From NCBI RefSeq assembly GCF_000015105.1, contig NC_008610.1, positions 868,001 to 932,000 on the forward strand: 64,000 bases of DNA, read 5' to 3'. A program made the translations under genes and the position numbers. Under the pieces are notes generated by a model. It saw only the letters and a program-made list of their open reading frames with translations. It did not search any database and was not told the DNA's origin. Origin of the DNA: Candidatus Ruthia magnifica str. Cm (Calyptogena magnifica). Its GTDB lineage: Bacteria; Pseudomonadota; Gammaproteobacteria; PS1; Pseudothioglobaceae. This document shows, one piece after another, positions 46,021 to 48,736 of the stretch; position 1 is the first letter of the stretch; the number at the start of each line of letters is the position of its first letter.

Positions 46021-46071
46021 GAAATCTCAAATACAATTTCTTTTAATTCAATAAACAAAGAGGATTTGTTT

Positions 46072-47023
46072 GTATTGAAAAATACATTTATTCGTCTTAT
46101 TCTCTTTATTAGTAATGTTTATGCAAACAATAAAACCACGTTATTTAACTTTCATTTTTGAACATCGCCTAAGCGAGCTAGAATTGTCATTAATATTAAG
46201 CCAAATATTAAATTTTCAATTAATGGACAAAAAAATAAGTTGTTTTAAAAATTAAAAATCACTTAATCGAACTTATAAAAGCTCTTTTATCAAGATCAGT
46301 ACATTGGAAAAATACGTTAATATTTACGTTCGAAACTGCTAAAAAATTACACCCTAAAGCTCAATAATCAGGGAACCAACCAAGTAAGGTTAAAAATATA
46401 ACAAGTCATGGTCATGAAAACTCAGATACGCTGGGTTATCGGTATTTAAAAGAAAAGTATACTAACCCTGAAAATTACTCAAAAATCAATCGAACCGAGG
46501 CATGAAAACCATCTTTATTAGACGATGGATTATTATGTTAGTTTGACTAAACCAACTATGCTTCGTTATTTATTTCAATTCATAATGATTTGATTCAGTC
46601 AAATGTACAAAAACTAGAAGTGCTTCAGTTTATACTTTGTCAGAACGTGACGGCTCAACCAAATTTGCTAGAGATTTAGAAAAATTGAAAAATATAGCTG
46701 ATCAATTTGTGGTTAATGAGGCGTTAATTAAAGAAGATCAATTTGAATAAAATTTTATGGAATTTTTTAGAAAAGATCTAGACATTCAAAGTTAAAAACT
46801 AGGATTTAAAATTCTCAAACGAATAAGTGAGGGTTTTAGTTTATTTGTATAAAAAATATCGCAAAAGGTAGATTTTGTTATCTTAAAAACACCTTTTATT
46901 CTTTCTGTATTAGTTGAAACTGCGTTTATTTCTAACCCTGAAGCCGAACGACTTAACAATTCAAAACAATAGGATAAGATTGCCAGTACAACTTATCAAG
47001 ACATCCTAGATTATTACAAATAA
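46072..47023 (+). pseudogene. Pseudogene of N-acetylmuramoyl-L-alanine amidase (AmiB/AmiC-like)
   Basis: This is the expected neighbour of tsaE. The N-terminus (LKNTFIRLILFISNVYANN) looks like a signal peptide and is followed by an AMIN-domain trace. The catalytic domain survives as SVYTLSERDGSTKFARDLEKLKNIAD, VLKRISEGF, and KTPFILSVLVETAFISNPEAERLNN with a final YQDILDYYK-stop at 47023. These match the amidase phrases VYTLSExGAS and iLVETaFISNpxEe. Internal stops and frameshifts are numerous, and the zinc-binding N-terminal half of the catalytic domain is no longer readable. Confidence 0.8.
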
Positions 47024-47035
47024 AACCTGAATGAG

Positions 47036-48736
47036 CTATTTTTTATTTGATTTATCAGGTGCATGTCCTTCTTTTGGCGGCTCGTAGTTTGGATCATTTG
47101 GGTTCATAAATATAAAATGATAATCGCTATCTTTATCTATTTTGTCAAAATCCACCACCATGCCTTCAAGCAGTGTTTTCTGCTCATAAACAAAAATATA
47201 CTCAATATCATTAGATTTAAGATGAATATCATTGTCATTGCGAGCATCAAAGCCCATTAGGTATTGGAAGCCTTCATCAGTTTTATCAACAGCAAAACGA
47301 ATTAATAGTCCCTGTGTTTCTAGATTATAGGCTGATAAAATAATTTCATTCGCTGCTTTTTTTGTAATTATAATCATGATTTTTTTTTTAATCTTTCTTA
47401 TAAAGTTAACAAATTGTACAACCCACGCATTACCAGTTACATTACGTAAGTGTGTATACGAAGCCAAAAGATTGTGCTTAATAATGCCATCAAACTTATT
47501 ATCTATACCCACACCGCGCAAAACCTTAAAAGCATAACGTGTATTGACGTTAATATTTTTAAGCTTTGAGTAATGAAACTCGTGAGCATAAATACGCTTA
47601 GACACGTTAGACCAACAATGCTCATCGGTTGGTGTCAACTCAACATAACCCCTACCAACAGGTTTGGGTGTCATATACGTATTTGCATCAATCACACCTA
47701 CCATTGGATGGGTTTGTTTATTATAGGTAATACTGTTAGTTAAATACATCAAGCCACCACATTCAACATATGTTGGCAAGCCTTGCTCTATTTTGGTTTT
47801 AATATTTTCTAGTAAGAGTTGATTGGCATTTAACGCTTTAAGTTGCATTTCTGGAAAACCGCCGCCGATAAATAACCCATCACATACTGGCAAATTATGA
47901 TTTTTAAGTGTGTCAAAATATTTTATGTTAACACCTAACGACTCAAATTTATCCAAATCATCTTGATAATAAAAACTAAACGCTCTATCTTTAGCAATAG
48001 CAACCGTGATTTTTTTCTTAATTGTATTAGTATTAATAATTTGCTTATTAAATTTAATACAATTTAAATTCATTAATACGTTAAGGTCAACTTGATCTAT
48101 AATAATACTAGCAACTTTGTTGATAAAAGTTTGCAATTGTAATGTTTCATTGACAGGTATTAAACCCAGATGACGCTCATCAATCACTAGTGATTTAGAA
48201 CGACGCACGCAGCCTAACAAAGGAATATCAGTATAATACTCAATAGCTTGAATTAATTTTGACTCATGGCGCTCACTGGCTACTTTATTAAGGATAACAC
48301 CAACAATATCTAAATTTTTATCAAACGCCTGATAGCCACTAAGTAATGGTGCCACACCACGGGTAATACCTGTGCTGTCAATCACTAATACCACAGGAAT
48401 ATTTAACAATTTAACAAGATCGGCATTGGCATCACCACCAGTAACACTCATACCATCAAACAAGCCCTTATTGCCTTCAATAATAGTAAGATCACTATTG
48501 ACACTTTGATTGTTATACAATTGGATGATTTCATCATCAGTCATGTTGTAAAAATCTAAATTATAGCAAGGAACGCCACTGGCTTGAGTAAGCCAAATAG
48601 GGTCAATATAATCAGGTCCTTTTTTAAAGGTTTGAACCTTTAAAGATTGTTGTTTAAATGCAGCGCACAATCCCAAACTAATAATAGTTTTACCTGAGGA
48701 TTTATGAGCAGCAGATAAGTAAAATGATGAAGGCAT
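47036..48736 (-). CDS. dsrN: DsrN (CobB/CbiA-type amidase) fused in frame to DsrR (IscA-like)
   Basis: DsrN resembles cobyrinic acid a,c-diamide synthase and is thought to amidate sirohaem for DsrAB; DsrR is an A-type scaffold-like protein needed for DsrAB expression in Allochromatium. The frame has 566 residues. Residues 1 to about 450 are DsrN: P-loop AAHKSSGKTII near 8, EGNKGLFDGM near 88, and the glutaminase cysteine in YVECGGLMYL near 325. Residues 454-566 (from Met at 47377) are DsrR. The junction is an A10 run (minus strand, 47389-47380). With nine As dsrN would stop at a TGA overlapping the dsrR ATG, so the fusion may be a recent one-base insertion or may be edited by slippage. Confidence 0.88.
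   Translation of the reverse strand: MPSSFYLSAAHKSSGKTIISLGLCAAFKQQSLKVQTFKKGPDYIDPIWLTQASGVPCYNLDFYNMTDDEIIQLYNNQSVNSDLTIIEGNKGLFDGMSVTGGDANADLVKLLNIPVVLVIDSTGITRGVAPLLSGYQAFDKNLDIVGVILNKVASERHESKLIQAIEYYTDIPLLGCVRRSKSLVIDERHLGLIPVNETLQLQTFINKVASIIIDQVDLNVLMNLNCIKFNKQIINTNTIKKKITVAIAKDRAFSFYYQDDLDKFESLGVNIKYFDTLKNHNLPVCDGLFIGGGFPEMQLKALNANQLLLENIKTKIEQGLPTYVECGGLMYLTNSITYNKQTHPMVGVIDANTYMTPKPVGRGYVELTPTDEHCWSNVSKRIYAHEFHYSKLKNINVNTRYAFKVLRGVGIDNKFDGIIKHNLLASYTHLRNVTGNAWVVQFVNFIRKIKKKIMIIITKKAANEIILSAYNLETQGLLIRFAVDKTDEGFQYLMGFDARNDNDIHLKSNDIEYIFVYEQKTLLEGMVVDFDKIDKDSDYHFIFMNPNDPNYEPPKEGHAPDKSNKK

Follow-up and report, generated by a model that had tools for sequence, protein, structure and literature searches.

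The dsrN and dsrR genes of Candidatus Ruthia magnifica were found to form a single open reading frame across a tract of ten adenines (A10). DsrN is a siroheme-amidation enzyme, and DsrR is a regulator of sulfur oxidation. In the reading preferred here, to which a probability of roughly 60% is assigned, a net two-base deletion fused the two genes, both domains remain functional, the fused protein is the main product accompanied by minor products of slippage, and the change was fixed as a nearly neutral one. If this is true, DsrN and DsrR, both of them poorly understood members of the Dsr system, have been joined in one organism.

The analysed stretch of DNA, referred to below as the window, comprised 64,000 nucleotides (positions 868,001 to 932,000 of NC_008610.1). 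The genome is a single contig of 1,160,782 bases, and the same size has been published for this organism, whose host is the vent clam Calyptogena magnifica (PMC3035367).

Junction of dsrN and dsrR in R. magnifica and its relatives

The fused frame extends from 47036 to 48736 on the minus strand (566 codons and a stop), and it was matched over its full length in the genome without an internal stop. It stands at the end of a minus-strand dsr cluster, in which the neighbouring dsr genes were named by reading. The DsrN part (residues 1 to about 452; 47381-48736, minus strand) was assigned by PRK01077 and Pfam to the CobB/CbiA-type a,c-diamide synthases. The DsrR part (residues 454-566; 47036-47377, minus strand) has an A-type (IscA-like) fold without cysteine according to phmmer, a structure match and the translation. 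Between them, the coding-strand sequence is ATT followed by ten As and TCATGATT; the A10 tract occupies 47380-47389 on the minus strand, and the plus strand shows T10 at these positions. The ATGA at 47374-47377 (minus strand), in which the dsrR start overlaps the old dsrN stop, now lies outside the dsrN frame. Both the sequence and the list of open reading frames confirmed the statement of the first-pass annotation that dsrN and dsrR share one 566-codon frame across A10.

A separate observation concerns the DNA just downstream of dsrR, where positions 46030-47030 (plus strand) hold the remains of a gene with many stops. This region is open over about 400 aa at the loci of two relatives, L043 and L046, where it was read as an amiC-type amidase, and has no long frame at L044, L045 and L047.

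The product that each tract length would give was computed. The dsrN-dsrR fusion resulted from A10 and A13. With A9, dsrN ended at 453 aa with a TGA overlapping the dsrR ATG (ATGA), and with A12 it ended at 454 aa with the same overlap. With A8 and A11, DsrN acquired a short wrong tail, and its stop lay 29 nt beyond the dsrR ATG. The earlier claim that A9 would restore the overlapping gene pair was borne out by these products, and A12 restores the pair equally well. Six A9 matches (overlapping matches counted) were present in the window versus a mean of 16.9 in shuffled sequences. Since runs of this scale are no commoner than in the shuffles, the length of A10 in itself is not unexpected; what is unusual about this tract is its place and the frame that it joins.

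The junction was compared in related genomes. A search of the family matched 56 of 83 genomes, R. magnifica included, and the junction was read at the loci of 29 relatives. The two genes were separate at all 29 of these loci, with the ATGA overlap at 25 and a gap at four. In the alignment for the genus, which comprised 12 genomes, R. magnifica had ATTAAAAA--AAAAATCATGA, and each of the 11 congeners had 12 nucleotides at this place, in every case interrupted (for example, AAAAAGCAAAAA, AAAAAACAAAAA and AAAAAGAAAAAA), with dsrN and dsrR separate and the ATGA overlap intact. The genes are, then, separate in the outgroups and form one open frame in R. magnifica, as in a gene fusion. Judged from the aligned sequences, A12 is the putative ancestral tract length.

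This comparison, which the first-pass annotation had called for, supported one part of its interpretation and contradicted another. The fusion at a homopolymer proved to be lineage-specific: none of the relatives whose junctions were read has it, and slippage is plausible in a symbiont as AT-rich as this one. However, the proposed one-base slip from A9 did not hold, since all 11 congeners have the interrupted 12 nucleotides and not A9, and it was rejected as the simplest history. A net deletion of two nucleotides was preferred because it is a single step, whereas a path through A9 needs two; such a path, an in-frame loss of three nucleotides followed by a gain of one base, is possible. The one-base difference between A9 and A10 is true arithmetically, but it is not a description of the history.

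The search was extended to the class, in which 181 of 370 genomes had a match. Among the matches listed, 34 places were fetched, 16 with matches spanning both parts and 18 with long or split open frames; frames longer than 500 aa in four genomes (G309, G138, G317 and G446) lay outside these 34 places. A DsrR match was present at 33 of the 34, and none of the 33 was fused. The matches spanning both parts were rejected as other natural DsrN-DsrR fusions, as the search tool had read through stop codons to produce them. Of 24 loci in named genomes, 21 had DsrR, five of them being in the same genomes as G040-G044, and no fusion was found among the 21. No report of a DsrN-DsrR fusion was found in the literature searched, and the word "fusion" is absent from the available portions of PMC2642828, PMC11406059 and PMC3035367.

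The comparison with relatives supports a history in which the R. magnifica lineage underwent a net two-base deletion in the interrupted A stretch near the end of dsrN. This deletion would have removed the interruption and left an unbroken A10; with the dsrN stop shifted to another frame, dsrN would have run on in frame into dsrR. Any net change of +1 or -2 within the last dsrN codons would fuse the pair. The ATGA overlap of the dsrR start with the dsrN stop puts the fusion within easy reach, and no special selection is needed. If so, an ATGA-coupled pair easily becomes a fusion protein, as roughly half of the frameshifting indels close to where the first gene ends would suffice. The deletion was probably fixed through its near neutrality; neither MutS nor MutL was detected in this lineage.

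Functional state of the two halves

The DsrN half matched the curated CobB model, NCBIfam PRK01077, with 420.9 bits (cut-off 254), and it contained the Pfam domains GATase_3, AAA_26 and CbiA, so that both nucleotide-binding and GATase_3 domains were present. It deviated at one of 151 columns conserved at 90%. For the DsrR half, phmmer against PDB 2k4z gave an E value of 3.7e-15, and the translation of residues 454-566 contained no C; this half was placed with DsrR as an A-type, IscA-like fold closest to 2k4z and without cysteines. All 25 positions conserved at 85% or more were kept in it (38 of 52 relatives' sequences at hand), and the dsrR frame was open to its usual end, with 113 codons as in ten of the 11 congeners.

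The dN/dS values of R. magnifica against its congeners were 0.14-0.21 for dsrN and 0.125-0.22 for dsrR, and the medians among the congeners were 0.14 and 0.11, respectively; as averages that reach back beyond the fusion event, these values cannot prove that the fused state works. R. magnifica had 12 private amino-acid changes in the 113 codons of DsrR and 20 in the 444 codons of DsrN, while seven near relatives together had 17 and 64. The excess in DsrR gave a Fisher p of 0.09, and synonymous changes were raised too (p 0.15), so that the private changes are a weak sign of possibly faster DsrR change. They are also what would be expected if dsrR were being lost and the fusion were an early step in its decay. 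This explanation is highly improbable considering the dN/dS of 0.125-0.22, the 25 conserved positions all being kept and the frame running to its usual end.

The ribosome-binding site at dsrR was compared in R. magnifica and five of the 11 congeners. It was weak in R. magnifica (-0.9) and in three near congeners (-1.4), but the site of dsrJ was equally weak (-0.8); two further congeners had stronger sites at dsrR (-4.5 and -6.0).

Two structure models were obtained. A fragment model of residues 425-566, built with a DsrR-only alignment, was used for the DsrR fold. In this model, the DsrR part had a pLDDT of about 81-93 and followed a helix (437-452) with a pLDDT of about 51-57. The DsrR part matched 2k4z with Z 14.8 (rmsd 3.8 over 105 residues) and IscA 1r94 with Z 14.5 (rmsd 1.9 over 95). 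In the full-length model, DsrN was confident, a single helix spanned residues 437-473, and most of DsrR was below a pLDDT of about 50-60; this weakness was put down, without proof, to misaligned rows of the alignment. The two models disagree at the DsrN-DsrR join. On these models, a DsrR fold within the fused chain is plausible.

The conservation of both halves suggests that the DsrN and DsrR domains remain functional and that the main product would be one DsrN-DsrR protein. On the sequence evidence, the fusion is probably real and functional.

Length of the A10 tract in DNA and RNA

The genome of R. magnifica contained 11 A10/T10 tracts and none longer. Nine of them lay in frames running on intact (some of these genes were read as leuS, alaS, hemB, argH and grpE), and the remaining two were the dsrN-dsrR fusion and a dsbE/ccmG-like gene that is out of frame at its A10. 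The latter tract lies outside the window (G000:C1:709385-709394; L035 1501-1510). The distance from start to motif in this gene was 191 nt versus 192 nt in the nine congeners where both were found, and the open frame of the region was 120 aa versus 177-194 aa in all 11 congeners. Its downstream part scored 134.5 bits with the dsbE model (cut-off 123.15) and had a dN/dS of 0.07-0.15; the short upstream part alone matched no NCBIfam family. Three readings fit the dsbE/ccmG-like gene: rescue by slippage, variation of the tracts, or an assembly error at this place.

This second out-of-frame gene leaves open a reading of the dsrN-dsrR junction as an error or a polymorphism. If the assembly or cloning were at fault, the true tract would be A9, A12 or still interrupted, and the genes would be separate as elsewhere. 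Such an error would account for two of the 11 A10 tracts placing a conserved gene in an unexpected frame and for a fusion unique among the relatives read; nevertheless, it is very doubtful. The other nine A10 tracts are in frame, and a wrong call at A10 is unlikely because the genome is a finished one, sequenced by the Sanger method to about 14x from three libraries (PMC3035367). Furthermore, if the interrupted 12 nucleotides were the true sequence, the non-A bases must have been missed, and not just the length of the run misjudged. Illumina reads from symbiont populations of C. magnifica exist and have been mapped to NC_008610.1 (PMC7473567).

Mismatch repair was searched for with two models only, TIGR01070 for MutS and TIGR00585 for MutL, which matched 11 and 14 of 14 control genomes, respectively. 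The MutS model matched none of the 83 family genomes, 49 of which had a completeness of 90% or more and little contamination. In the genus, the MutL model had no match in any of the 12 genomes, R. magnifica included. Mismatch repair may be missing throughout the family. As neither model found a match, changes of homopolymers in the DNA, and variation of tract length among cells, are plausible.

The A10 tracts of the congeners differ in number and place. The 11 congeners had 82 separate tracts of at least ten; 80 were fetched and their open frames screened, and seven were read by eye. Two of the seven were in broken genes (G041 and G035), three lay at the junction of two genes, and two were of other kinds. 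In G041, an A11 near base 1501 of L169 divides a PRK11573-like (CNNM/CorC-related) gene into two frames. In G035, an A10 near base 1501 of L121 interrupts a gene read as penicillin-binding protein 2, and the flanking frames are short. The genes read as pgsA and hda meet, unfused, at an A10 in L125, L160 and L170 (G036, G040 and G041).

With mismatch repair missing, the tract might occur as A9, A10, A11 and A12 in the DNA of different symbiont cells, so that fused and split genes would coexist and the reference sequence would capture a single state of a drifting junction. This would agree with the lack of TIGR01070 matches in the 83 family genomes and of TIGR00585 matches in the 12 genus genomes, while the controls matched, and with the shifting of A10 tracts in number and place among the congeners. 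It is nonetheless distinctly unlikely, as nine of the 11 A10 tracts of R. magnifica hold intact frames.

Slippage during transcription was considered as well. The demonstrated slippage in Thermus thermophilus dnaX uses an A9 tract, and the coding regions of some bacteria avoid long A or T runs (PMC1088944). In insect endosymbionts, 12-50% of transcripts are reported to be frame-corrected at long poly(A) tracts (PMC5009743). In Buchnera, 151 of 157 insertions and 16 of 57 deletions among transcription errors were in homopolymers (the discussion of the same paper gives 15, or 21%, of 70 deletions), and both classes rose steeply with run length (PMC5574713). Since run errors in Buchnera are mostly insertions, A11 should outnumber A9 among the slipped forms of the dsrN-dsrR transcript. 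Imperfect transcription of A10 would then yield minor products: DsrN with a short wrong tail from A11, and separate, coupled DsrN and DsrR from A9 or A12. Ribosomal slippage was rejected as a source of separate proteins, because a ribosome shifting by -1 on A10 would continue in the frame of A11 and not in the split frame.

A slippage switch actually in use, by which RNA polymerase on A10 would provide the fused protein and the two separate ones in a useful proportion, is possible but unsupported, and it is considered very unlikely. The run in the coding frame is of sufficient length (at least about nine; here A10, within the slippage range of the dnaX A9), the slipped forms A9 and A12 give a meaningful product in restoring the coupled pair, and correction of 12-50% of transcripts is on record for insect endosymbionts (PMC1088944, PMC5009743). 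However, the run is interrupted in 11 of the 11 congeners, and this lack of conservation argues against a selected device. In addition, slippage on runs is mostly by insertion, and A11 gives neither the fusion nor the coupled pair; in the Buchnera study, no transcription error was seen that restored a frame (PMC5574713).

A broader proposal is that the length of the A tract acts as a three-state switch, with A10 giving bifunctional DsrN-DsrR, A9 or A12 the coupled pair, and A11 or A8 DsrN and uncoupled DsrR. DNA and RNA slippage without mismatch repair would keep all three states and hold the proteins both joined and apart. This proposal is regarded as unlikely. A chance event in a genome lacking mismatch repair seems a better description of the junction than a designed switch. 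If this is true, homopolymer drift without mismatch repair could create new multidomain proteins, beyond the pseudogenes that it leaves.

Comparison with known systems

The poly(A) frameshifts of Buchnera and Blochmannia (Tamas et al. 2008, as cited in PMC5009743 and PMC3017870) likewise occur in AT-rich obligate symbionts, within genes that otherwise look intact, and transcription slippage at these indels, as at the A10 of dsrN-dsrR, could give other frames. The difference is that in Buchnera and Blochmannia one broken gene is mended by slippage, whereas in dsrN-dsrR slippage would part two joined genes. The dsbE/ccmG-like gene with its A10 is closer to these slippage-rescue cases than the fusion is.

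The A9 of T. thermophilus dnaX resembles the present A10 in that the unslipped frame gives the long product and the slipped frame a shorter one. However, dnaX is a demonstrated device, and the dsrN-dsrR tract is lineage-specific and a candidate only (PMC1088944). Another parallel is the yidC/yidD fusion of Blochmannia, in which, as in dsrN-dsrR, two genes became one in a reduced genome (PMC3017870); the dsrN-dsrR fusion is attributed to a net deletion of two nucleotides at an ATGA overlap.

The closest known relative of the C-terminal part is Allochromatium vinosum DsrR (2k4z), which belongs to the same family and has the same fold. The title of Grimm et al. 2010, as listed in PMC11406059, describes it as IscA-like and as binding neither iron nor Fe-S. 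The A. vinosum protein was solved as a lone protein of 125 residues, whereas in R. magnifica DsrR is a C-terminal domain.
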